Made by a program: the position numbers and the translations under genes. Positions 45,872-63,715 of a DNA stretch of 64,000 nt are shown here, piece by piece. The stretch spans positions 2,914,001-2,978,000 of the forward strand of contig OZ024849.1 in the NCBI GenBank assembly GCA_964017145.1, in the 5' to 3' direction. The notes under the pieces were generated by a model. The model was not told the DNA's origin, searched no databases, and saw only the letters and a program-made list of their open reading frames with translations. Source of the DNA: Agrocybe praecox (taxonomy: Eukaryota; Basidiomycota; Agaricomycetes; Agaricales; Agrocybaceae). The first letter of the stretch is position 1. Every line of letters begins with the position of its first letter.

Positions 45872-46050
45872 CGCTAGCGCGAACTAAACCAGGACTCACT
45901 TATACGAACTCAAGATACCCCACTGCCAGATTTTCCAAACTTCGAAAATTACAGGACCGTGGAACCTGCCGCTGTCACTGACAGCTGTCAGAACCAACCC
46001 CAGGTTCAACCACTCCGAGTCACGTCACTCGATAAACCCACATTCCGATC

Positions 46051-49000
46051 ATGGCGACGGAATCCTCCAGCTCGAATGCATGTCCGACCCTCACTGGACC
46101 GGAAAACTTCCAGATCTGGAAACTCCGGATCCTTGGGAAGCTTCGCCGTGACAAAGTGTACGACGTTATCATATCCCCCCGTCCTTCATCAAACCCACAA
46201 ACTGCAAGTACCGTTGCCGCATTAAATGCTGCAGCTGCAGTTGCTCGAAATACTTCCAATGCAAATCCACTCGACCTTAGCCTCCTGACTGCAGCAATTG
46301 ACGCCGAAACCGATGCAATTGCCGCCGCAAACGCGCTTGCCATTGCGGGATCAAACGCCCCCTTCCAGGATGCATGGGATGTACGCGATGCAAAGGCCCA
46401 TGGAATAATTGTCGACCACATCACCGACCGTCTCGCTCTCGAAACCTCAACCGAAACTACAGCAATCGGTCTGTACACAAGACTTGTACAAATCCACGAG
46501 AACACAAATGTTGGTGTCAGCGCATTTTACACATTCGTCGGAATGATGTCCCTGAAATGGGATGGTGATGTCTCAACGATCCAGGACCACATCTCAGAGC
46601 TTCGAGCCGCAGACGCCAAGCTCACGTCTATGAAACGACCTCTTGATCCTGAATTTCTAGCATTCATGCTTCTCCACTCCCTCCCAGACAATGACTCCTG
46701 GCAACAGTTCCGGATATCTGTCCTGCAGTCTATGCCGAAGGGATCAACCATCACATTCTCCGAAATTGCCGATAGGCTTGATTTCGAAGGAAAACGAATT
46801 CAAGGGAGCTCCTTGGCGGAGACGGCACTCAATGCAAAATCGTCTAAAGTCAAATCAAGGCCCAAGAACTCGAATTCAAGACCCCCAAAACACTGCGACA
46901 ATCATCCCGACTCTGTATCTCACGAAACAAAGGATTGCTTCGTAACGAAGAATAAGGAGAAGCAGAAACTGGGTAAAGGAAAAGAAGGTGGAAAAGGAAA
47001 AAGGAAAGAATCAGGTCACAAGGCGAAGCCAGCACAAAGTGCCTCTAGCTCCTCCGAATCCGAAAGCGATGACGAACGTGCCCAATTCGCTGCCTACGTT
47101 TCCCGTAATCCAAAGCCAAAATCTGTCTCCGTAAATAGAGCCTTAATTAAACGCATTCAGGGCTATCTCAGTGTGAACCAAACTAAGGACACCACAACTG
47201 ACTTACTGCTTGACTCGGGAGCCTCCACTCATATGACCTCGCAACGTGCATGGTTCAATCCAAAATCCTTTCAGACATTAGACCCTCCTCGAGAAGTTAA
47301 ATTTGGGGATGAATCACATGTACTTGCCACCGGAATTGGCTCTATCACTTTGTGCGACATTGTCGATGGCAAAATTGTTGAAACCATACTTCCCGACACA
47401 CTATACATCCCTTCATTCAAGTTAACATTAGTCTCTGTCAGAAAACTAGATAAGAAGGGGTATTATTCAATTTTCAAAGGGGGCAAATGCACTGTCAAGC
47501 TCTCGAAAGGTCGAAAACGTGTACTTGAAGGAAAAGACAACCATGGTCTTTACAAACTAAATGCCAAACCACGAAATTATAAGGAGGAACCCTTATCATC
47601 AGACACAGCTCTAACCTCGATTGATATAAATGTACTCCATCGTCAACTCGGCCATGTATCAACTGATCGTTTAAAGAAAATGATTTCGGAAGGACAAATT
47701 GCAAATATCACAGGAACCACAGGTGTCGCAAAATTTTGCGAACCATGTACACTTGCGAAGCTCAAAAAGCTACCTTTCAAATCACAGGAAAGTAGACGCA
47801 CCACTCGCCCTCTCGAGCTCATCCATTCAGATGTTGGTGGACCAATTACACCCAGTGATCGCCATAAATACCGCTATTGGATATCATTTATCGACGATAA
47901 CTCAAAATTCATTTGGATATACTTCATGAAACGCAAACGCGAGGCTTTCGGAATCTATAAACAATTTCGAGATGATGTTCAGGCCCAATTCAAAGAAGAA
48001 ATTGGAGAAATAAACTTCTCGAAGAATTTCGTAAAGTTCTTTCAAACCGATGGTGGAGGTGAATACCTTTCCAAGGAATTCGCCGCAGAGCTCAAATCTA
48101 CTGGTGTCTCGCATCGCATCACCGCACCCGACACCCCAGAGCAAAACGGTACAGCTGAGCGCATGAACCAAACGCTCGTAAACCTAGCAACAGCCATGTT
48201 AATTGACTCGGGTCTCCCTATGTCATTTTGGACAGACGCAATGCTCACAGCTGCATTCATCATATCTCGCACCCCTGCTAGCGGCACGGGTGGACAGGTG
48301 CCTTATGAAGTCTTATTCAAACTGAAAGTTGACATATCATGGCTTCGCCCATTCGGATGTAATGCATACGCATTAATCCCTAAAGACAAACGAAATGGGA
48401 AATTTGCTAAAAAGGGAACAAAGTCAATTCTTTTGGGGTACACATCAGGACGAAAGGCCTACCGTCTACTAAACCCCACCACACGAAAAGTTTTCCATTG
48501 CCGACATGTCCTGTTTGATGAGGCAGGTGATACACCTATTGATTTAAGTGCATACGACACAAAGTTCACACCAGAGAAGTGGGAGGACATTCTGAAAAAT
48601 AAATCCTCAAATCCGCTACACCCCAGTGTGGACTATGAATCGGATTCTGAAGAAGAAAGTGTCAGTAAACCATGCTCACAAATTCCTGGAGCAGTGGGAG
48701 ACATACAAACACCACAAGCAGTGGGAGAGATACCTCCAGAAACCCATGATCCTGTTGTACACCCACATCCACCGAATCCAACAAAACGCACCCGAAAAAC
48801 GTATATACCTGATCCAACATCAGTGGGAGCTAGTCGCCCAAAACGTACTGTCGCTCCCGTGAGACCAAATAACGACTATTATTGTGCAAAACGATTGGAA
48901 GAGACTCGCCGACAGACCACCAAAGTGGCACAAAAGCAAAGTCGAAACATTGAGAAAGAAATGGTTGCTGATGGACATATCGATAACGAAGCAAGCAGAG

Positions 49001-50435
49001 TCGGAAATCAACTCCCCGATGAGTCAGGGTCTGGTGACAAACCAAACCCTGAAAACTCCGCAAATGCCGATGCCGATACCGATACCAACAAATCCATCCC
49101 TGATGACATCGACGACGAAGTATACTTTGCCGGAATCGCAAATACAGGACCAAATGCACAACAAATACCTGATAACCCAATGGATGCCTTAAATGGACCT
49201 GACGGACATCACTGGAAAGCAGCATTAAGAGAGGAAGAACACAGCCTGATTGAAAACAATGTATATGAAGTAGTCAAAGTACCCAAAGGTGTAAAACCCA
49301 TCACTTCAAAACTTGTGCTACGAATTAAACTTGACGCAAATGGAAATATCGAAAGGTACAAAATTCGCATCGTTGCTCGCGGTTTCACTCAGAAACATGG
49401 CATCGACTACAAAGAAGTTTTCGCCCCAGTTGCAAATTTAGAGTCAATCCGCATCATTATTGCACTTGCAGCAAAATACGATCTCGAACTCGATCAAATG
49501 GATGTTGCGACAGCATACCTAAATGGAGAACTTGAAGAGGAACTATATATGTTCCCCCCTCCTGGAGTCACTATTCCCGAAGGTCACTGTTGGCGCTTAA
49601 AACGATCACTTTATGGTCTCAAACAAGCAGGTCGCACCTGGAACCACACACTCGATAAGAAGTTGAAAGAACTTGGATTTTTCCGCTTAAATGCAGAAAC
49701 ATGTCTCTATGTTTTCAAGGGTAAAAAGGGAGAAATATGTTTCTTAGTAGTCTATGTCGATGATTTTATTTTAGCCGCGAACTCAAGACCTTTCATGAAT
49801 TCAATAAAGGAGAAACTCTCGAGTACCTTCAAAATGCGCGATTTAGGTCCAGCCACTTATATACTAGGCATTCAGATCACACGCGATCGCAAAGCACGAA
49901 CGATTTCCTTATCACAAAAGCAATATATCCAAACCGTTATCAACCGCTGCGGAATGTCAAACTCGAAACCCACATACACTCCTATGACCCCAAACTCGCA
50001 TCTCACAACCGAAAATCCCAATGGAGACAACAAAACCGTACTCGAAATGATCATCGACGGAAAAAACGTCTCGTACGCCAGCATTGTGGGATCACTAATG
50101 TACGCCATGATGGGAACAAGGCCTGATCTCGCATATACAGTTGGTGTACTCGGTCGATTCAGCTCAAACCCCAAGGCGCATCATTGGATAGCCGCGAAAC
50201 GAGCCCTTCGATATCTAAACAGTACCTCTGACGTAGTTCTGACGTTCAATGGGAACGATGTTGCAATGGACTCCGATTACAAAGGGGCATTCAATTTTCA
50301 CGGTTTCTCCGATGCGGACTGGTCAGGCGACATTGACACTTCGAGATCCACTTCCGGTTTTGTTTTTATTTCGACACACGCCGCAATCGGATGGGGAAGT
50401 AAACGCCAAACACTAGTGGCCTTATCTTCGACCGA
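46051..50435 (+). CDS. Copia Gag-Pol polyprotein, interrupted
   Basis: A single frame of about 1460 codons up to the insertion point. Gag comes first, with a Cys/His cluster (CDNHPDSVSHETKDC). The protease DSGASTHMTS is near residue 388. The GAG-pre-integrase HHCC region (LHRQLGHVS ... CEPC) is near 530, the integrase core (HSDVGG, later TDGGGEY) at about 590-670, and reverse transcriptase (YVDD) near 1234. RNase H follows (FSDADWSGD ... VALSST). The PR-IN-RT-RH order is that of Ty1/copia. The frame enters the KDZ element after the second base of a codon and meets a stop seven bases later (TAG at 50440-50442). Coding resumes at 63716, so the protein is disrupted inside RNase H. Confidence 0.92.
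50429..50435. repeat. Target-site duplication of the KDZ element (left)
   Basis: CGACCGA, repeated at 63709-63715 directly after the right TIR. Removing one copy plus the element restores the copia reading frame, which confirms the boundaries. Confidence 0.93.
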
Positions 50436-50722
50436 CACATAGACTAGTTGATATGTACCTAACAATAACGTAGTAACCAAGGTGACATAATACACGTAGT
50501 ATACGTGCCAAATGGGGTGGGCCTATGACTACATTCATCACGTAGTGTATGGCTGGGCTGATCAGGGTACATTGTAACGTAGCATACGGCCTAGCGGATT
50601 ACGCTGGCAGGCAATCTAACAAATGTGTTGTTTCCGGCCTGGTTAAAACCATTACAGCTATTGCCGGATATCACACGCTCGGGAATAACGAGTAAGATTG
50701 ACATGTATTACAATTGAAATCA
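50436..50722 (+). repeat. Left terminal inverted repeat of the KDZ element
   Basis: 287 bp, near-identical to the reverse complement of 63433-63708 except for an 11 bp insertion (near 50625-50636) and a few substitutions toward the inner end. Contains ATTGCCGG (50660-50667) facing CGGGAATAAC (50680-50689). Confidence 0.9.
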
Positions 50723-50749
50723 CAAAGTGGCAAGTTCGGAATTTACGGA

Positions 50750-51763
50750 CTATTGAAAACGGTTCAGCCTCTGTAAGATGCCTTTGAGGAGACGCATCCC
50801 ATCATCCCATTCCTTATCAATTTGATTGAACACGTTCAGATAATAACTTTCCATCCGCAGCTGGTTTCGTCTACCTTCCTTCATCAAATCAAGCCTTCCT
50901 TTGTATAGCCTGGCATTCCAGGTGTCTAAATCGGGATTTGCGAGAAAATGAACCTCGTAAAGATTTTCTTCCGTAAAATGCTACCCTATTTTCAGTGAAT
51001 TGATCTTCGAAAGGACGTCTAAACCACTCACATAGTCATAGATAAATGCAGTATGTGAATCACAGACCAACTTGTCCATCGAAAATAACGAGGGATCTTG
51101 TTCTTCCTTCGAAAGTGATCGTTTGCGTACTCTGTTTACGTGACGGACAGATACCCTTGATGCCTCTACTGGAGGCGAGAAGACCCTACTTCCAGTGCGT
51201 TCCATGTCGCGGCTAATAAATTCCATCACCGTTGGAACAGGTTCCGGAATTGGCGGCTCGTTTCTTTTAGTTGGTGATTGAACGATGGGAGATAGAACCT
51301 GAACACGATCTGAAATATTCCCATCATCCGAACTTGAGGACATGATATCTTGTGAAAGCGCGAAATAACGATTGGATTTGTGATGATTATGGGTTCGAGT
51401 TGGTGATTCCATAGTCTGATCCTCAATGTCCGGAGATGGCGATAGAGGACCAGTATAGTATTGACCGGGATTGACGTTATCCATGTTTAATTGCATAATC
51501 AAAGGGGACGGAGATAGCGCCTCCCTGAAGTATCGGCCTTGGCCTTTGGGAGTGATAGGCGACAGTGATGGGGTTCTGTCATAGTGCTCAGATCGTAACA
51601 CCGGCGGTCCTGAAGGCATATCCAAAGCTGGTGATTGAGTCATCGAAATATCCGGACTTGCCATCCCTAATGATGGGGTTTTTTTCCTCTTCGCCTTCGT
51701 ACTTGCTGTGAATGTACCAACATTTGAGGCATTTGAGATGCGGCTATCCTTTTTCTTCGTCAT
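50750..51763 (-). CDS. K1: unknown Ser/Pro-rich protein of the KDZ element
   Basis: Two exons, 51032-51763 and 50750-50980, give 963 nt, 320 aa. I chose the ATG at 51763 (MTKKKDSRIS), giving a basic start; an in-frame ATG at 51871 is possible but would occupy most of the promoter shared with K2. The N-terminal two-thirds is disordered-looking with repeated SP dipeptides (LSPSP, SPITPKG), resembling phosphorylation-site tracts. The C-terminal exon is compact and helical (HFTEENLYEVHFLANPD, then a Met/Leu/Arg-rich amphipathic stretch), probably the conserved domain. Its stop lies 28 bp inside the left TIR. No known family recognised; a DNA-binding or regulatory partner of the transposase is possible but unproven. 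Confidence 0.7.
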
Positions 51764-51996
51764 CTGTCTTCTGTTGAGGTGAATTCCAAATAATCTGACT
51801 GTTGGTAAGCGGAGAAGTGGACAGAATGACAAGAAAGGTAAGTTAGGATTTATCGAGATAATCAGATTCATCCATCAATTCCCGTAGATCACGTGAACTT
51901 CCTGCTGGACTTTCTTGAATCGGAGTTGCCGGCTGTTCGTATCTTTCCAACATCTTGTTTCTGCCAGAATCTATTTCCCCCTCCTTCGACTTCACC
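51764..51996. promoter_or_regulatory. Divergent promoter region between K1 and K2
   Basis: 233 bp separates the two start codons. No obvious TATA box. A CCGG-type motif (gttgccggctg) sits near 51926. Confidence 0.4.
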
Positions 51997-54920
51997 ATGC
52001 AATCCGACATGCAGCGTAGCTACCTTATGTCGTCCCTTAAGCCTCGTATCAAGGTTGCCTTCGCTGCCAATGATAAAGGCGCCATTTCCGAACTCCAATC
52101 CGACATGTGCACTTACCTACGGAAATGGACTGCAACTCCATCCTGGCATGAGGACTGGACAAATGAGGAGTTTCGCGCCATGGACCGAAGTATTGTGAGT
52201 ACTTATAACCTTTATAAAAGAAATATCATTACTCACACCATTGTCCTTTCAAGATAATGCTCAACCGTCTTCGTATCACCTCTGAGTACAAGGAGAGCGA
52301 CATCTTCGCCGCTTTGGTGGATTGCTTGTCCGAGTGGGATGCCAAAAACCCCAACTCTCCATACCAGCCCTCCCTTATCCACCAGTTCTTCGCCTCATGG
52401 GACCAAGCACACAAACCTCCCACCCCGAAGAGCCGATACTTGGTAGGGTATGATCTTTCCGACGATGAGGAAGACGCGCCGCAACGTGTCCCATCAACAA
52501 GCGTCAAAACTGTCACCTTTGAGAAAACCCCCCGCCCCTCCCAAATCAGTACTATATCAAAGACGACGCTCACATCCAACCCCCTTGCAATTCCAAAGAA
52601 GAAAGCGCCTGGTTTGACAGAACTCATAAAACCTCCAAAGCACACCAGAGACACCAAGAGCTTTGGTGACTACATCAATGCCTCCAAGGAACGAAACATC
52701 GAGGCCGCCGAGAAGCTTGACAGGGAGAAGGAACTGAAGGTAAAGTCCGCACGAGAGAGAGTGGGTCACGATAAGGATACGGACCAGAATAGGGAGCCGA
52801 AGAAGAACGAACAACGCGACAACCTCAAAAAGGAAGAGGAAGCAAAGAAGCGGGGAGACAAGGCAAAAAAGATGAAAGAGGATGAAGCACGCCTACAGCG
52901 GGAGCGGGAGAAGGAGATCAAGGAAAGGGAGGTCAAGGCGAAAGCGGCAGACTCAAAGAAGGGAGACGCGAAGCCATACAAGGCCAACGAGGGAGCATCA
53001 AGCAAGAAAGTAGCAGCGAAAGCTGCCAAGTCCGCGAATGCCGTCCCTAAAGGCAAGGTACCAGAAGACACGGAAAGCGACGAGAATAGCGAGTACAGCA
53101 ACAAGCAGTATGAGGGCTCCGATGATCAGGATGAGGAAGAGGACGAGGACGATGAGGAGCAGGACGAGGACGAGGAAGAGGAAGAGGACGAGGACGATGA
53201 GGAGCAGGACGAGGACGAGGAAGAGGACGAGGATGAAACCCGCAATTCCCGGAAGCCAAAGATGGAGAAGATGGAAGCGTTACTCCCCAAGCCCAAGTCC
53301 GTCATTACCGCTTCTACGCGAAAAGGGAAGGTAATCAAGACTCCCAAGTATGTCGACAGCGATGGAGACGCTGAGATGGCAGCAGAGCCCTCAGATGACG
53401 AGTCCGACGCGGAGGTCACCAAAAAAAAGAAAGGTCGCGACAAAAGCTCAAGCAAAAGTGAGGCACCGGCACCCAAGGCAAGGAAGGCAAGGAAAAGGCC
53501 AGAACTACGTGCCGAATCCATTCTCGACATTCCCTGTAGCATATGCCTGGTGTATGGACGGCATTGCACGTATTCAAACAAGGATACACCACGATCGCTG
53601 AAGGCCCGATCCTCCTGCGACCAGTGTCTTGGCAAGAAGGCCAAATGCAGCTTTGCTGTCCCTACCCTCCCTCCTTTCTTCGAACGGACAGACATGGCTC
53701 CGGAGGCTCGGAAGGCTATTCCATACCTCACCGCCCTTTTTACGGGGTCTACCTCAACCATCAGAGTTCTACGTGAGTATATCATCTTCCTTCAAATATA
53801 AATTCTATTCTGACAGGTACTAATTGAAGCCGACGTCTCTGAAGAAATACGCCGTATCGAGAGACAAGTAAAGGAGACGAACACCCGCATCGATACAACA
53901 AACAAGATGGTGCAGAAGACGCTTACAGATCTCCAAGAGCATTTGGTGGATCAGATGCAGGGCCTCTATGATGGGCTAGTGGCGGACTTGAGCAGCGCAT
54001 GGGATGCGCATATAGAGGCTATGACTGCAAATCGCCAAGTGCAGGACGCGGTGTCCGAGAGTCCGGGAATAGCGGAGGTTTCACGACAAGCAGTCAACGA
54101 TGTGAGGCCTGTGGACGATGACCACAATATGGAGGACCCGGCTTCAACATTGCAGGAAAGTGAGGCACAGGACCCTAAGAGTCTTCATGTAACTACCGCG
54201 AAACCGACACCCTTCATGCCAAATGTGCCGGCAATTGCAACCTCGATCTCGGAACCGCCAAAAGCACCCTATTCACAACTGCCAGCAATACCCACCCCTC
54301 ACTTGCACATACCGGCAATCCCATCGCTAACTACTGAAATGCCGGCAATAACGACCTCTCACTCGCATGTCCCAGCAACAGCAACACCCATCCCAGAGGC
54401 TCCGGCAATAACGCCTACTATTACGCACAAGTCGGCAATGCCTACTCCAGTCACTCAGGGTCCGGCAATGCCACTGCAGGGACTTCACTCGCCTCCAGCT
54501 GCGAGTGCGTTATTGCCGGCTTTGCCCTTGCTGCCTTCGTCTTTACCTTCCCTCGTCATTCATTCCGCCATGCCGTCCTTCACACCTCATCCGCCAACTG
54601 CTTCTGCTGCTGCTGTCCCAACTCAACTTAATATCAATGTGCCCTCCATCGAAACACAAATGACAGCCCCATTGCTGCATACCCCTCGCGCTGAACTTGA
54701 ATCTCCCATGAATGAAAACGGTCCGTTGACCCCACTTCCTGACGAATTTGACAGTGAGCCTGAGGAATCCACTCGTCGTCGCTCCAAACGCAAGGTGGCA
54801 GAAGTTCAAGGTGCAAAAACTTCAAGACCAGCAAAGAAATCGAAAACGAAGAAAGCCATCAAATCTCAAGTTGATGGCCCTAATGCCGGTGATACAGCGG
54901 AGGCAGGTCCTAGCAACTAG
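51997..54920 (+). CDS. K2: large charged coiled-coil protein with a Cys cluster, KDZ element
   Basis: Exons 51997-52194, 52254-53772 and 53830-54920 sum to 2808 nt, 935 aa. Order: an N-terminal folded-looking domain (about 1-130, with YLRKWTATPSWHEDWTNEEF and LIHQFFASWDQA); a Lys/Glu/Arg-rich coiled-coil (about 200-330); a poly-Asp/Glu tract (about 358-392); a cysteine cluster (about 493-526: CSICLVYGRHC, then SCDQCLGKKAKC), reminiscent of fungal Zn-cluster domains; a second coiled-coil; a Pro-rich region with repeated PAI/PAM tripeptides (about 705-790); and a basic C-terminus (RRRSKRK, RPAKKSKTKK). This suggests a nuclear, chromatin- or DNA-binding protein. The last acceptor is the AG before CCGACGTC, since the nearer one gives a stop. 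Function unknown. Confidence 0.78.
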
Positions 54921-55062
54921 ACTGCGTTGGGGGTGGGCGTTTTTTATGTACATTTTTATTTTAGTTATGTCATTTTTTGCTCGTCATTTTTTGCTCAATA
55001 AATTCTTGGAACACTGATTGATGTTGTATTGTAAGCATGAGAAAGAATTGTAAGTACAAGCA

Positions 55063-57449
55063 TTACTTCTTTTGAAGTTTTGTCCTCTTCCTGTGCTCTT
55101 GCTGTTCTTCAGCAAGAGCGTATATATCCTTCTTTGGGGCTGAACGACGTCTTTTTGATTGGATGGACTCATCCGGCAATAGCGTTGTTTTCAATGTTTT
55201 ATCCGGTATTGGTGCCCCAGTGTGTGACTGTTCCGGCAATTCCTGTTCCGGCAATGCCTGACGTATAATTGACTGTTCCGGCATTGGCAGTGAAAGTAAC
55301 TCTCGACCCGGGAATGCCGCTCTTTGAACTATCCCAATCCTCAACTCGAGATCCAAGTGTTCTTGAAAGGGCTCAGGTTTCTTTAATGTTTGTGAAATCA
55401 CATGAGGATTGGCATGAGGCTGGAATATTTTTGGAATATTGTCCGGTATTGCCATACCTAGTGGACTTGGCACACAATCTGTAATTGGATTTGAATGTTG
55501 AACTTGAACAGTGGAATTGAAGTGATTGGTTCCTGGTCCAATAAGGGTAGAATGCTGTTTCATCGGCGGCCATTCTAGAGGAGAGGGAGGTCCATATGAG
55601 ATTTGAGTTGGAAATTTGAACATGTCATTTGGACCAGCCACTGCTTGATTGACAATTTCGAAAGCACTAGTACTTGTTCTGGGTTCTTGTCCGTCTGATA
55701 TAAGTGCGGCATTTCCGGACTCAGAAATATATGTGACGTCATTGCCGGACCCAAATTCTCGCATGGCGTTATTTCCGGCCGCATGAGGAGCGTCAATACT
55801 CGTTGTCACATGCTGCCGTCCGTCAATGACAGAATGATTTGCAGGAGTGCCTCCTATTACCGGTAGTTGCTGTAGCTGCATTGTTTCTATTTCTTCTTCG
55901 CTGCTGCTTACAGATGTTACTTTGGCATGCCGTGCGGGTTTTCTGACTTTGCTAGGCAAAGACCGCTCCGGTGGACTTCTTCCTGCTATTGCCGGATGTA
56001 GGCCAACTGGATAAGTTGCGCAGGCAACCTCATTGCGTATTACCACTGTGCTGAATTTAAACGGTATATCTCCATTTGTCTGTTTGTACCTCCACTGATC
56101 CAATAGTCCTTGACAATCTGTTCGGGTCATTTTGCTAGGGTCCTTGAAACTGGTTTCAGATGGAATGTACTTCAAATCAAAATATTTGGTTGCATTGATT
56201 TGTATGTCTTTCCAGGGCGCGCTTTTGACCCGGCCCTCGGTAGCAGTCTCTATATCCGTTATTAGCGCGAGTATTTTCATAACTTGTTGTTACTGACGAT
56301 AGTGAGCATTGATGAATACTCTTATAATCTCCTTTTGAGTATCAAGCAGCTCCATGTCACCAGGAGGACAGAAAGGAGCTGGCACTACCGGCAGTCCATG
56401 TTCATTCCAACCAATGTCAGACTTTGTAAAATGAGTACTTCCTGGTGCGCTAATCCCGTGCTCTATTTCCTGAATGTTTGCAACGTATTCCATGTAAGCC
56501 TCTTTGAAAGCTTCAAATGCCGGTCGATTGAATTCCTCAAATCTTGGTATATTTGGCATTTCTGGACGTCGATATTTATGACTGTTATCATGACTGAGCC
56601 TTATTTCAGTCTCCACAAACATATGCCGTCAATCGCGGGATTTAACTTACACAGCATATGCAATGTTGCCATTGACCCGGTAATGACATTCAAATGTGAC
56701 AGAACGCATTCCGAGGGTTTTAAATCGATGTTGGTCCATTCGTTGAACTATTGCATGTCCATAACGCTCTACCTGTCTGAGTATATAATGAAATTTGATG
56801 ATCTCGATTATATATTTGAATCACTCACTTTGCTTGTATTTCCGGTGGAACACCGTCCCTCTCCCACTTTGCAAGTTCCTCCTCTAGTTGCACCCGTTCT
56901 TCATCCTCGAGTTCGTCTTTGACGGCCTTTACTGATTTTTTGTAGTACTTCAACCATTCTCGCTGCCCTTGTTCCGCCCCATCTGATAAGAATGTGCACA
57001 TCTCCATAATTTCTTTCTTTTTCTTGTGCTCGACGACCTTTGTGAAAGTCATTTTGCTATGAAAGCCCAGATCACGTATGCTTTTTTGACCCCTGGAATG
57101 GTTGGCAAACCATGTAAGGATTTGCTGTAGATGATAATTTAGTTGGGAGTCACATTAATATTTATTGTGCTTTGACCTTTTTCTTCCTTTTCCATTCCGT
57201 CTTCCTATCACGATCCAGAAGTGCCCGTTTGACATATCTGTCGCCCCAAAGCTGTCTGATTGAATTCACAATTGAACCTTGCAACAAAACACCCTTCTCA
57301 GTACGAGTTTTTTTTGATTTGTATTCCTCGAGATATCCTCTTAGAATATCCTTTTCAGCATTGGTCCAAATCTCCTTAATTGGTCCCGATGTTACATCTG
57401 CAACTGCATTGGCTTCCTCGTCCTTCTTGGCCATCTGTTCTGGCTGCAT
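55063..57449 (-). CDS. K3: accessory protein recurrent in agaricomycete elements
   Basis: Five exons on the minus strand: 57177-57449, 56829-57124, 56651-56776, 56298-56581 and 55063-56249, summing to 2166 nt, 721 aa. The N-terminus has a helical domain with IWTNAEKDILRGYLEEY, LWGDRYVKRA and, across the first intron, EWKRKKKQILTWFANHSRG. I associate this W-x-N-H-S/T-R-G block with repeated basidiomycete genes near transposases. An acidic/basic helical segment follows, then a domain ending in a conserved VPAPFCPPG-like stretch. The last exon is long, Pro/Ser-rich and disordered, with many P-E-Q and A-I-A-G segments encoded over CCGGCAAT motifs, and ends in basic residues (SKRRRSAPKK). Runs convergent with K2 (142 bp apart) and divergent from K4 (211 bp). 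Confidence 0.75.
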
Positions 57450-57660
57450 ATTGGACGTCGTTCGTGAAACAAAGAAAGGAGAAATACAGGTGTGAAAGTC
57501 TAAACACGAGGAAAACATATGTACTATTCTTGTTATCTTAAACTGGATCTCACGCAAACTATAATTACTTTTGGAACTGCAGTCCCAGTAAGGAATCGAT
57601 CTCTAATAAATTACGGACATAAACTCAAGCTTAAGATTAACCTTTTCTTCCACCACCACA
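57450..57660. promoter_or_regulatory. Divergent promoter region between K3 and the transposase gene
   Basis: 211 bp between start codons, AT-rich in the half near K4 (tacgg, cttaagattaacc). No clear TATA box. Confidence 0.4.
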
Positions 57661-60600
57661 ATGCCGAAAGGATCGACACAGATCGCCAGAACAAAAGGGT
57701 TAGCTTCCTCAAGCGTGCAGCGGGTTAAGTGGTCTACCTCTGGACGAGTTGCTAAAACTGTGCGTGTTGCAAATACCTACAAGCGCAAACGTTCGGAAAG
57801 TCCGGACAATAAGAACTTGAATGATCGAGTGGGCAGTCCATATGTTGATTTGGGGATTAGTGCCGAGGACGCCCTAGAAAATATGAATGATGCTGCACAG
57901 CAACGGAAGCCAACAAAAGTGAGTAAAATATTGCAAAGGTTGAAATAAAGTTCTGAATCGTTGCAGTCGCAGAACGATTACCTTCGGGAATGGCTCTACA
58001 AGCGCCACGACGCAATTCACCGAATACTGAAGGGCAAAGCATACACATCCGGTGACTCGCAATGTACTACCTGCAGTCAAAAGAAAGGATTATGGCGGTG
58101 TCGATCGTGCATAGGTGGATCGCTTCTTTGTTCCTCCTGCCTAAGGCAATCCCATCAAATGCTATGGTATCACAGGGTTGAAAGGTGGAATGGATCATAT
58201 TTTCAGATTGGTGCACTTTGGCAAGTGGGTGTCAGTCTTAATCTCGGCCATAATGGACAACGCTGCCCTAGAATGAAGGAAGCGTCAATGCCGGATCTCA
58301 CGGAGACAGCGTTATTCCCGGACAGTGACGATGCATATGCGGGAATGCCGGCACTAGTTGACATGTCTGACAATATGTCAAACAACGTGTTGAGTGGGAT
58401 CGAACCTGACGATGATGATGACGACTATATTGGGGTAGATATGGATGAGGAGACCAATACTTCTCCAAAAATGCTGCCAAAGCCACCGCTGTCGGACGAG
58501 AGCGGAAATAAGTATGTCACAGTGGTCGACACTTCCGGTATTCACTACCTTGCGGCAATACCATGCTCTTGTGACAATGCTCCGGAATACGATATGCAAT
58601 ATCTTGATTTAGGCCTCCTGACATCAAGTTACGTGGACATCCAAACTGTTTTTACGTTGACCGTTCTAAAGGACTTTCGCCTATCAAACCTGGAATGCAA
58701 AACTACTGCATATCAGTATTACCAAAAACTTCGAAGATTAACATGCCCGGCATTTCCGCGCTTAGTCCCCAACCGATATGCAGAACTTCGTCGCGCCACT
58801 CGGCAATTCCGGGATTTGAAACGCAGACAGATTCATGATCACCAGCTTTACGGCATTAATGAAGGAACCGAGGGTAGTATGGCGCTGTTCTGTGCCGCTT
58901 GTCCTCAGCCAGGAGTAAATCTTCCAGATAACTGGAGAGATGACCCTAACCGAGACCTATATATTCGGAGTTTTGTGTCAGATGGAAATTTCAAGGCAGA
59001 TCACGTTAAACAAAGGAATGCTGCTGATGACGTGTTTCTCTCTACAGGTGAAGCATACCTAACGGAGCCAAATGAATATGCGGCACACGTTGAAGAAATG
59101 GTTACTATTGCACCAAAGTACAAAACTGTGAGTATTTCAGTTTTGCACGTAATTGCCGAGGAACTATTTTATCTCCCGTTAATAACGTGCCAATATGTTA
59201 GCGCCAATAGCGTGTCTTATGATTTTGAGGCGTTATTGCCGGAATTACATTAATTCATAACTCGCTAATGACGGTCTTTCTTACTGCCAATAGAAGGAAA
59301 CTTGCCATACTTATCATGCTATGCAGGATGCATCCAAAACAATTGCCAATTGTGATGTGACTGGACTTGGTACCCATGCTTGTGGTCGGCATGGCTGTTT
59401 TTGCCCAGGAAGTGCGGTCGACTTTCAAAAAGGCGAACGTCAAATGAACATGGACTGGTCACTGTGCGAGGCTCTGAAAACTACTCATCTCGATGGAATT
59501 ACTGACGTGCTTCTAATCTACGATGTTATGTGCCAATATCACGTCCATTTGTATGAACGAGTTGCAGAATCTACCAACATGTCGCTCCCTGACACTATAA
59601 AAATCATCAAGGCAATTGGACAGTTTCATGTTCATGGACATCAGGAGGAATGTCTTTACAGATTCTCCACCAGCTTCATTCCCGGCATTGGCGTAGTGGA
59701 CGGCGAAATCTTGGAAACTCTTTGGTCTACATTAAATGAAATTTCCCGCAGTACCCGGACCGCAACTCTCGCTCATCGAGCTGAAGTCCTTGATGACCAC
59801 ATGGGTGATTCAAATTGGAAAAAGGTTATCAACACTGGTATTTGACAGCCATCTTCATACATTGTAGGCTATTCTAATGTTCTTTAGGGCCAACGATTCT
59901 CAAGAAATACAAACGTGGTGTCATTGAACAAGAATTAAGCGAAGAGTACTATAATGAGCTTTCTCACCGGATAGCCCCTGAAGACAAGGAAACGTGGACC
60001 TCGGAGATTGAGCTGGCCGAGTCTCGGCGTCAAGGTGACCTAACTTCGATGGACATTATGCGTAATCGCATTAAAAAAGGTTTGTCATGGAATTTCATCC
60101 AAACACTTGTCTGACATCATTTATTCAGCCCCTGGGAAAAAAGCAACAGAACTTTCTTTGTCTGAGGGAGAACTACAGAACGGAGAGCAAGGTGGCCAGT
60201 CTGCCTGGTTGTCAAGTGGAATTAAAATAGTAGAGGACCAGTGCGTTATTCCTTTTTTACTCTTGCCATTATTCAAAAATAGTGTGCTAATTGCGGACAG
60301 ACTCAAATTACAGGCTCATGTCCGAGGTCTAAGCTTGCATCCAACAATGGATGAAAAAATTGATCTGACCGCCAGGCGCCAGCGTCTCCGGACAAGGATA
60401 GAATCCTACTCCAAATTAGTTTATGATTATATGGATGTTGACTCCGTTCAATCAGCTGTAAACGCACTGGAAGGTTGGACGGGAATTGCGGATCCATTGA
60501 TCGACAGTCCGGAAGATGCGGATATAGATATTGGAAGCTCGGAATTACCACCTTTAGGATTTGATCAAGTCTCGGCTGAGCCTGAGAGACAGCAACTCAT

Positions 60601-61429
60601 TTTCCCCTCATCGGTTCCGGCGCAGTATTCAAATACGGTGCCGATGATCAGCCTCCGACAAAAGGAAAGTCTATTACTCAAGGGCCAAGCAACGGATTGT
60701 TTAGAGGGAATCAAAGAGATCTTAGTTCAGATGTCATGGGAGTTCACCACTAAAGTTCGACAGGCATCCAATAATAAACAGACATCAAGGGCATGGAAAG
60801 GAGTCAAAGCTTTGAAGCGAAGTCTCCGTCATTACCGCGCACTCTACAATTATTGCCGCCGCCAATTGCGACATTTGATACGACCAGAAGACATTGATCA
60901 GGACTTCCCAGTGCTATCTGACAAGGATTGCGAGACGAGTAAGGCCGTTGGTGATCCAAATGCACCTGGACTTCGAAAGCAAAAACTATCTTGGATTTGG
61001 ACATGGATAAGTCCGGACGGCATTAACGGCGTACAAAATGGGACACTTTCGAACAATGTAGTGAATTACCAAAAAGAATGTAAGTTGCTTTCCTCCTTAG
61101 TTACATTGTACTGAAGTGATTGTAAAGTTTATCGCATACATTGGCTACGCGCAAGAGCCCAACGTAACAGATGGACGGAGGAACTAACACTTACGCAACG
61201 TGAGATGGAATGGACTGTCCGATTTTACATGCACATGGCGACACGTTGGGCAGCAAGGAGGGACAATAACAGTGGCAATGCCGGTCTCCAAGCTTATGCC
61301 GAACAACAAATTGATTTGTGGAATGAACTTGGTCGGATTACACAAAATCTCTTTCATTCAAACAACTTCGCATATGAACGAATATGGATTCCCGTTCCAG
61401 CGCTCGGTAGAAGTATAGTAAATACTTAA
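57661..61429 (+). CDS. K4: KDZ transposase with CxC2-type cysteine cluster
   Basis: Seven exons: 57661-57918, 57967-59127, 59294-59837, 59888-60079, 60129-60240, 60301-61079 and 61128-61429, summing to 3348 nt, 1115 aa. The N-terminus is basic. Residues about 119-170 form the CxC2-like zinc cluster (CTTCSQ, WRCRSC, LLCSSC, then HRVERWNG). The transposase core has CDVTGLGTHACGRHGCFCPG, the catalytic-type block LIYDVMCQYHVHLYERV (about 549) and the DGEILETLWSTLNEIS block (about 608-620), holding the expected acidic residues of a DDE-type nuclease. Helical, KYKRGV- and WxK-rich regions follow. This is the catalytic protein that cuts and joins the TIR ends. Frame is intact across all introns, so it may be active. 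Intron 2 (166 bp) is unusually long and contains a CCGGnAAT motif. Confidence 0.92.
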
Positions 61430-61595
61430 CTCATTTGTCTGTTAATTACGTCCATTACGATGCTAATGCCGGAACACTTAATAAACTCGGTTGTATTTTC
61501 CCGCGATCCCCGGAGATTATTTATATCATGTGATATCAAACCTTGCTCATCGATTTGTGCGATGATAACCATTACATTGATAACTTTCCATCACC

Positions 61596-62945
61596 ATGAA
61601 CCCATATGCCAACATGAGCGGCAACAAAGTGACTGCCCCTCCTGTCGACTACGAGCTCGACCGGATGTTGCCCCGTAATAAGCGAGAAGAACTTGCGGTG
61701 CTCGAACTGCATTTCATGCATGCCCATTTGAAGACTGGTCTCCGGAACTTCTGGAATCGAGTTACAGGCCAACATTTTGATCTCTACATCACGCTGCAAT
61801 TATCTCTCGCGGATATGGTAGTAAGTCTTTATTGTAAATACTGTTTATTTCGTTCACTGAGTATTCTAGACCTGCGTGTTGGCCCACATGGGTTACTGTT
61901 CGATCATGGGATACAAGTTCGAAGTTCCATTCTACTTTCGGGAATTAGCGGACGTCTTCGCTACCCCCGTTCAAAACGTGAAGCCGGTGTGGAGGTGTGA
62001 ATCCGCAATTAACAATGAATCAGATATTAATCTCGATTTGTACATTCTTCGTGGTTTTGAATCTCGTCTGGATTGGTGGAATGCCAATGAGAAATATCCG
62101 GCAATAACATTGAACTTGGTCCATGACATATTTACTCTCTGGGTTACGAAGGTAAGTTATTAGTCCTTTGGGTTGAGAGTAGTCTAAAAATATCATGTCA
62201 TCTTTAGGTGAAACAAACCGAAACTTTGGATGTCGTAATGGACGAAATTGCGAAAAAGGACCCCGTCTCGCATATCACTGAAGCCCTGGTGGAGTTTGGA
62301 CTATCGCGGGACCGCAAAGGCAAGGGAAAGGCCGACGATCCGTCATTACCTGGCCCTAGTACAATGCCAAGCATTCCGCAGGAGCCGGTCAACATTGATG
62401 CGCTCAAAACAGCTTTGCAGGCCAGTTTTGAATCATTTTCCAAAGGAAGAGAGGTCCTCGCCGCAGCGAAAAGTATTGTGGAAAATGGTGTTCATCAATC
62501 CACACACCGTATTCAGGCAATCTCTATTCTAGAAAACATACATGCCGATGTTGGAAACCCCTTTCCAAATGACCGACTACATTCAAAATATTGCAAACAG
62601 TACCCGAGCGTTCCTCGAAATAATTCCAAGCGAGGTGGAACATCAACCAACTATATCAAGCCACCAAAAAAACCTCGAATGCGCCGTAAACCTATTCCAT
62701 CCTCGCATAACGTCAAATCCGGGAATGCCGATGACATCGTCAATAGCGGCTACGCGACCATGACCACCATGAGTGGTTTATCTGACCTCTCTGGTAGCTC
62801 GAATGACTCAGAATACCTTGGACCTCACATCCCAACTTCAAACTCGGATATTGTGGAAATTATCCGTGTCGTAAATCATCCGGACTCTGAGCCCGCTATT
62901 GACAGCCCTGATGATTTTTACACTAGTAACTCCGAAGATAATTAA
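61596..62945 (+). CDS. K5: unknown protein of the KDZ element
   Basis: Exons 61596-61820, 61870-62151 and 62208-62945 sum to 1245 nt, 414 aa. The N-terminal ~170 residues look folded and conserved (LDRMLPRNKREELAVLELHF, TCVLAHMGYCSIMGYKFEV, WWNANEKYPAITLN). The C-terminal half has a helical stretch (about 215-270), then basic clusters (KPPKKPRMRRK) and an acidic Ser-rich end (SDSEPAIDSPDDFYTSNSEDN), as in nuclear proteins. I recognise no family. It lies 166 bp downstream of the transposase stop in the same orientation and may be a transposition cofactor, but that is inference. Confidence 0.72.
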
Positions 62946-63432
62946 ATTTCGCAGCAGTTGTATTTCCATTACAAAGTATATCTGTCTAAATATAGTGCGC
63001 GGTCTTCATCTGGGTGTATTCAGGGCCCAATAAGTGCTGTCATGAAATCGGATGCAAATGCTCTGGATAAATGTGGTGTTTAACGCCGCAATTGACGTGC
63101 GATATTTCATAATTTTGCGGGACATCAACAGTCGATGACATACCTGCAAACCAAACAGGGCTTTAATATTTTCTTTGTGGTTTCAAATACCGGAGGAAAT
63201 GGATCATCCAGGTGGTGCTTTAATTTAACATTTTGGATGGAATGGGCTTTGTTTTGCCCTTAATATTAGAGAGGAATTTTGTATTCACATAATTAGCAAT
63301 GGCTTCAGTCAACGCAAGGATGTGCAATGGTATACTGCATAAGAGTAGTGGCTACTAGTAACAAGTCCCACCCATGCGCGAACTTAACTCGTCATTCCCG
63401 AGAGTATAATATCCGGCAATAGCCATGATGGT
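62946..63432. other. 3' subterminal region of the KDZ element
   Basis: Noncoding. Near the right TIR (63392-63415) it contains ATTCCCGAG ... ATATCCGGCAATAGC, an imperfect repeat of the motif pair inside the TIR (63464-63490). Confidence 0.6.
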
Positions 63433-63708
63433 TGATTTCAATTGTAAAACTGTCGATCTTACTCGTTATTCCCGAGCATGTGATATCCGGCAATAGCTGT
63501 AATGGTTTTAACCAGGCCGGAAACAACGATTGCCTGCCAGCGTAATCCGCTAGGCCGTATGCTACGTTACAATGTACCCTGATCAGCCCAGCCATACACT
63601 ACGTGATGAATGTAGTCATAGGCCCACCCCATTTGGCACGTATACTACGTGTATTATGTCACCTTGGTTACTACGTTATTGTTAGGTACATATCAACTAG
63701 TCTATGTG
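63433..63708 (-). repeat. Right terminal inverted repeat of the KDZ element
   Basis: 276 bp, reverse complement of 50436-50722 apart from one 11 bp gap and scattered changes near the inner edge. Confidence 0.9.
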
Positions 63709-63715
63709 CGACCGA
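63709..63715. repeat. Target-site duplication of the KDZ element (right)
   Basis: CGACCGA, identical to 50429-50435. Confidence 0.93.

Follow-up and report, generated by a model that had tools for sequence, protein, structure and literature searches.

What sets a large transposon apart from the host DNA around it, and which protein reads the mark? The question is raised by a KDZ DNA transposon in the basidiomycete Agrocybe praecox, which occupies positions 50436-63708 (13,273 bp, flanked on each side by CGACCGA) of a 64,000-nucleotide stretch of contig OZ024849.1 (positions 2,914,001 to 2,978,000; the whole stretch is referred to as the window). The element carries five genes (K1 to K5, table 1), all of whose models are predictions from DNA, and is strewn with about 107 near-copies of a dispersed 13-bp near-palindromic word, CCGKNAWTNMCGG. 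This word, which was missed in the initial annotation, is the main feature of the element. We propose that it is a self-tag bound by K2, a predicted Zn2Cys6 protein encoded by the transposon itself, and give this reading a probability of roughly 0.45.

The word was found in this element with an iterated matrix and, from its own seed, in a second element on contig C12 (hereafter the C12 copy). A word site was defined as a match to at least seven of the nine fixed positions of CCGKNAWTNMCGG, and a strong site as a match to at least eight. The 13.3-kb element contained 107 word sites, compared with 75 in the other 50.7 kb of the window, and 44 strong sites, compared with 5. The 8-mer ATTGCCGG occurred 16 times in the element (0.42 expected). 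In 2-kb steps along the window, the count climbed at the element to 7–25 per step, and the poorest step within it (52–54 kb) covered the charged middle of K2. Site density was similar in exons (8.0 per kb), introns (8.9), spacers (7.8) and terminal inverted repeats (TIRs; 9.0, five sites). Genome-wide, 91 copies of the 10-mer TATTGCCGGA were detected, eight of them in this element and two in the C12 copy (Poisson P ~4e-19), and no cluster of comparable size was found elsewhere in the genome; for AAAGACGCG, with 825 places in the genome, 100 were among the matches listed. The top 8-mer z score was 21.2 in this element, 15.7 at locus L056 and 29.5 at locus L060, compared with 7.9–10.7 in five 10-kb flank stretches.

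A word this frequent could be a by-product, without function, of protein repeats such as the PAI decapeptides of K2, or of a CpG-linked mutation bias. The most frequent spacings between sites include 30 and 60 bp, 53 of the 73 pairs within 60 bp are spaced by multiples of three, and part of the exonic sites sit in decapeptide protein repeats. However, the sites occupy either strand and every frame, with certain frames predominating in K2 and K3, their density is alike in introns, spacers and TIRs, and strong sites are concentrated in the element. When synonymous codons were shuffled (200 rounds per gene, with amino acids and codon pools fixed), the exons held a mean of 34 sites and a maximum of 53, compared with 84 in the real sequence.

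The conservation of the sites was assessed against the C12 copy, which shares 63.7% DNA identity with this element over 12,323 aligned columns; sites were chosen in this element alone, and their core bases were compared with the C12 copy. At 48 of the 107 sites a site was present at the same place, against a mean of 2.0 and a maximum of 7 in 500 shifted controls. Third codon positions were 65% identical within sites (n = 197) and 46% outside, and noncoding bases 73% (n = 153) and 55–59%, respectively, while first and second codon positions differed little (77% and 79% within sites, 70–73% and 75–78% outside). CpGs were kept at 63% within sites (n = 139) compared with 33% (n = 436). Because the codon shuffles fall short of the real count, and because third-position and noncoding bases of the sites are conserved, the word is selected at the DNA level. 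An origin of the word as a coding by-product was rejected on the synonymous and codon shuffles and the noncoding site density, and the functionless alternative as a whole is considered very improbable.

Twelve distinct KDZ loci out of 176 KDZ matches were examined for words of this kind. A distant element on contig C12 at ~212–226 kb (C12b), whose transposase is 29–37% identical, contained 66 TCCCGMY sites in the 13.7 kb taken, and another (C12:2520200-2533199, 13.0 kb, loci L061 and L060; hereafter L060) contained 29 exact copies of AAGACGCG. The first word, CCGKNAWTNMCGG, occurred there at 0.7 (C12b) and 0.0 (L060) per 10 kb. Outside its own family TCCCGMY was found at 3.0 per 10 kb in this element, 6.4 in the C12 copy and 2.3 in L060 (flank, 2.4), and AAGACGCG at 0.8 in this element and 0.0 in both the C12 copy and C12b (flank, 0.8). 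There are thus three words, each dense only in its own family. In the C12 copy, 35 sites of a degenerate motif were counted (mean of 3 shuffles, 3.3); its best 8-mer z score, 10.8, is unremarkable. The limits of C12b were set by a 33-bp inverted repeat, with no clear duplication and no CA..TG ends, and TCCCGMY sites run up to 3 kb to the left and ~1 kb to the right of them (81 in 21 kb); either its true ends lie elsewhere, or the flank contains a related piece.

A zinc cluster encoded by K2 is present in all four word-bearing elements. K2 of this element reached 23.6 bits with the Pfam family Zn_clus (PF00172; cutoff 21), a score that comes from two stretches, each of which falls below the cutoff alone. 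When the halves of its six-cysteine cluster (CX2CX6C...CX2CX6C) were tested separately, the first matched profile positions 16–37 and the second positions 2–18, which is a noncanonical, swapped order. The halves are joined by a linker of 16 residues, and the three relatives share the six-cysteine layout with linkers of 16–20 residues. Across the four K2 proteins (this element, the C12 copy, C12b and L060) the six cysteines and three further residues are invariant. Identity of the cluster was 87% with the C12 copy, which has the same word, and 36% and 27% with the two elements that have other words. The protein also has a 36-residue run of D, E and Q. The K2 zinc region found no relative in the protein database search; in the genome search with these queries it matched, like K5, only this element and the C12 copy.

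Relatives of K2 lay within 10 kb of a KDZ match, among the matches listed, at 10 of 15 places in one search and at 4 of 4 in another; these counts include one place per search that is the query's own, and two KDZ matches each serve two places. The five places without a KDZ neighbour were judged only against the KDZ matches listed, and may therefore be false misses. The 19 places in total (two of them the query loci), 14 of which have a listed KDZ match no more than 10 kb away, point to a sizeable family. Two acceptors with equal scores exist for the third exon of K2, giving 930 or 935 residues, and the longer form was used here. In this exon (53830-54920) the decapeptide PAI repeats, seen by eye, are the word translated in frame. 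The disordered-looking protein encoded there has apparently been shaped by the DNA label.

CGG triplets are a classical target of Zn2Cys6 proteins. Gal4-type fungal Zn2Cys6 regulators (PF00172) share the six-cysteine cluster with K2 and the CGG triplets with the word; they differ from K2 in that its cluster halves are swapped and the protein is encoded inside a transposon. Short words of self-identity spread through coding and noncoding DNA are also known from the DNA uptake sequences of Neisseria and Haemophilus, which are read by the uptake machinery; those are bacterial, whereas the similarly dispersed word described here belongs to a eukaryotic transposon.

We infer both the reader and its effect in the following way. 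K2 would bind the palindrome as a dimer and would read the word along the whole element, exons included. Its acidic run may loosen chromatin, and coating of the entire element would keep only copies of the same-word family free of silencing, in the manner of VANC. K4 would cut and paste the element, and K1, K3 and K5 may be partners of K2 or K4.

VANC proteins of the Arabidopsis VANDAL elements are anti-silencing proteins, and their words differ between related families (PMC5735166, PMC10398659). The likeness to the present case lies in a short, family-private word that is replaced in relatives, and in an element-encoded reader, here proposed. VANC, however, belongs to Mutator-like elements, while K4 of this element is a KDZ transposase; VANC motifs lie in noncoding tandem repeats, while the word is found at like density in exons, introns and spacers; and anti-silencing was demonstrated for VANC, while here it would be its presumed counterpart.

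The word might instead be bound by the transposase K4 (CxC2, with a B-box-like stretch) or by K3, with many internal contacts serving self-recognition, folding and end pairing of a 13-kb element. In K4 and K3, as in K2, divergence parallels that of the word; the TIRs also contain word sites; and another group of KDZ genes shows no word enrichment, all of which can be counted for this alternative. The sites bound by transposases of DNA transposons are usually clustered close to the ends, whereas the density of the word in the TIRs barely exceeds that in the interior. CGG-based sites are a better match for a Zn2Cys6 protein, and the B-box match of K4 is below the Pfam cutoff. Reading by K4 or K3, the main rival explanation, is regarded as rather unlikely.

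A host protein could also be the binder, its sites being exploited for transcription, nuclear position or replication, with different families using different host proteins. CGG-type sites are typical of host fungal regulators, the element-encoded reader is so far putative, and relatives of the C2a type (described below) carry a variant word and no K genes. The sites of a host regulator, on the other hand, would be expected mainly at promoters and not equally in exons, and all four elements in which a K gene set was recognised contain a zinc-cluster gene. This explanation appears improbable.

Several observations weigh against K2 as reader of the word. The halves of its cluster score only 18.1 and 16.5 bits alone, and the cluster of C12b alone 16.0 bits, against the Pfam cutoff of 21. 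In C12b and L060, K3 and K5 were recognised mainly by position, with weak likeness, and K1 was not found. As judged from the sequences, K4 diverges with the word too, so that covariation fails to set K2 apart. Neither C12b nor L060 has a palindromic word (C12b yielded no dyad of half sites), and one dimer model misfits some of the elements. VANC motifs lie in noncoding tandem repeats, and the word sites do not. The TIR relatives C2a, C2b, C4 and C8 carry a variant word, TCTGGTAWTACCAGA, without K genes. This variant looks like the first word with its CpGs turned to TpG or CpA; C2a is full of it, and also retains nine sites of the first word. In a stretch on C9 in which no K genes were found, two other words are strongly enriched (8-mer z 22.0). 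The CpG observed/expected ratio is 0.90–1.13 in the four word-bearing elements, compared with 0.31–0.55 in another group of KDZ loci (L001-L007), a contrast in favour of protection from silencing, but it is also 1.02 in the neighbouring copia frame, which lacks the word, and 0.96 in the first 25 kb of the window, and the contrast may come from age or base composition. Finally, the survey comprises four word-bearing elements with a recognised K2, and three words.

A broader proposal is that there is a class of five-gene KDZ transposons in which each family writes a private word across its body (~1 site per 125 bp), coding sequence included, and encodes a zinc-cluster reader, word and reader co-evolving and bending synonymous codons and disordered peptides. 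The arguments for and against such a class seem to us evenly balanced. For the group examined, the words were rejected as a general feature of KDZ elements, since this other KDZ group, L001-L008 (3.6–3.8 kb each, 29.7 kb in total), was without enrichment: it contained no sites of the first word, four of TCCCGMY (1.3 per 10 kb, below the 2.4 of the flank) and none of AAGACGCG. The top words of L008 are microsatellite. None of the three words was found in 8 kb around one locus of this group (L062), and its open frames included no companion genes of the K1 to K5 type. L001-L007, which are the top-scoring KDZ matches, have a G+C content of 0.36–0.38 and strong CpG loss. At L036-L037 (C9:1323600-1339000) a TIR-like end is followed by the words GCCACTTAG and the palindrome TCCTAGGA, in part as repeats. 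The locus L057 (C8:3097500-3103499) is a relic in which fragments of K1 and K2 relatives survive; no word is strongly enriched there.

Should K2 prove to be the reader of the word, fungi would provide a second and separately assembled system of sequence-specific transposon self-recognition, one whose label shapes even the protein-coding DNA. Such a system would show how a large element is distinguished from host DNA over its full length, would provide matched pairs of zinc clusters and DNA words for studying the evolution of recognition, and would suggest how a KDZ element could manage without a TET enzyme. The words by themselves are a new way of finding and sorting such elements. Literature searches returned no paper on dispersed words in KDZ elements, though the original KDZ paper (PNAS 2014) could mention such genes.

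As to the element itself, the initial annotation had described a KDZ transposon of about 13.3 kb nested in a copia RNase H region, with both TIRs, a 7-bp duplication and five open spliced genes, and these statements were borne out by its ends, its duplication and the cut copia frame. The element begins with CACATAGACTAG and ends with CTAGTCTATGTG. The two TIRs agree fully over their outer 180 bp; further inward they differ by one indel of 10 bp, a single-base gap and three mismatches. The insertion interrupts the RNase H region of the copia reading frame (46036-50442), and copia sequence resumes past the second CGACCGA. An empty site had been suggested as a check. When the two flanks were queried separately, their matches on contig C13 abutted (the left flank stops at 2057587 and the right flank has its third base at 2057591, each on the minus strand with 73% identity), the pattern that an uninterrupted paralogous site with one 7-bp copy would be expected to give.

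Table 1. Positions in the window of the transposon's repeats, predicted genes and dispersed word.
Feature	Position	Strand	Remarks
7-bp target site duplication, left copy CGACCGA	50429..50435		read directly
Left TIR, 287 bp	50436..50722	+	local alignment of element with its own reverse complement
Dispersed word CCGKNAWTNMCGG, first to last site matching at least 8/9	50655..63499		examples at 51244, 53240, 54063, 56626, 59230
K1	50750-51763	-	320 aa, one intron (50981-51031), no Pfam family
K2	51997-54920	+	~935 aa, three exons; Zn2Cys6-like cluster, acidic run, C-terminal PAI decapeptide repeats
K2 zinc cluster CX2CX6C...CX2CX6C	53535..53648	+	halves match Pfam Zn_clus in swapped order
K3	55063-57449	-	725 aa, five exons, no Pfam family
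K4	57661-61429	+	1115 aa, seven exons, CxC2/KDZ transposase
K5	61596-62945	+	414 aa, three exons, no Pfam family above cutoff
Right TIR, 276 bp	63433..63708	-	local alignment of element with its own reverse complement
7-bp target site duplication, right copy CGACCGA	63709..63715		read directly

The TIR query gave 13 matches in the genome: three within this element, and ten spread over eight further loci. Both ends were present at two of those loci. One of these, the C12 copy (C12:2708515-2722578), is a complete second element with 239-bp TIRs (99% identical), a duplication of AAATAGG and the arrangement K1(-) K2(+) K3(-) K4(+) K5(+), with protein identities of 31–85% by stretch. The termini are CACATAG..CTATGTG in both. 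Further copies with the same TIRs and gene set had been called for in the initial annotation, which named copies sharing only transposase and TIRs as the contrary outcome; the C12 copy retains the full set of five genes, with order and orientation unchanged. The other locus, C2a (C2:719544-730622; L024 and L025), is an element of 11 kb whose TIRs measure 1075 bp and are 99.7% identical; it has a duplication of GTAAACT and was probably moved by the transposase of another element. None of K1 to K5 had a match at E 1e-3 in the fetched stretches of C2a, C2b, C4, C8, C11, C5 and C9. In the genome search, a single additional match turned up for K1 (E 3.6e-8), and a single weak one for K3 (E 5.5e-4). 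The view that the five genes form a self-contained system, and not a transposase accompanied by passengers, thus stands in part: gene set and word are shared with the C12 copy, but the other seven TIR-bearing loci gave no K1 to K5 match in the stretches fetched.

The element could still be an ordinary KDZ transposon that moved recently and carries passenger genes, with nothing beyond known KDZ biology, as its format resembles that of known mobile elements. In the portions of PMC12810828 that were available, the mobile KDZ1-KDZ3 of Cryptococcus neoformans are ~9–11 kb long with TIRs of 139–241 bp and short duplications. They differ in having CxC1 instead of CxC2 and duplications of 4–8 bp, and those portions do not mention a K2-like gene or a dispersed word (PMC12810828). 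A family-specific word, and the same five-gene set and order retained in the C12 copy at 63.7% DNA identity, argue against a mere carrier of passengers, which we hold to be highly improbable.

A comparison may also be made with Kyakuja, a KDZ-superfamily group whose two Laccaria families have no TIRs and carry a TET/JBP gene (Kojima 2025, PMC12730594). The KDZ transposase, 7-bp duplications, CA..TG termini and Agaricomycete host are shared with Kyakuja in that description (PMC12730594), whereas this element has 287/276-bp TIRs, four other genes, the dispersed word and no TET/JBP match in Pfam. Because of its TIRs, it was filed as a KDZ element with Kyakuja-like ends and not as Kyakuja. The Pfam scan of the five proteins, made in pieces, gave no TET/JBP dioxygenase, the gene by which TET+ transposons are recognised; the very distant PE type could escape such a scan.

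All five genes are open after predicted splicing. K4 was confirmed as the CxC2/KDZ transposase that had been proposed, with the KDZ transposase domain (PF18758) at E 8.5e-47 (160.1 bits, cutoff 26.6) and CxC2 (PF18803) at E 1.1e-19 (71 bits, cutoff 27); its B-box-like stretch is a Pfam match below cutoff. Three of the four accessory genes had been considered unassignable. K1, K3 and K5 gave no Pfam family above cutoff in the scan; K2 can be assigned as Zn2Cys6-like, an assignment missed in the initial annotation. In the protein database search K5 had no relative, and the only one for K3 came from Agrocybe pediades (37% identical, covering 59% of the query). An in-frame stop (TAA) in K3 was rejected, as the C12 copy shows an intron there; the 48-nt intron 56250-56297 leaves K3 fully open. 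The remaining introns of K1 to K5 are 48–60 nt long apart from that of K4 at 59128-59293, which at 166 nt is unusually long and contains three strong word sites.

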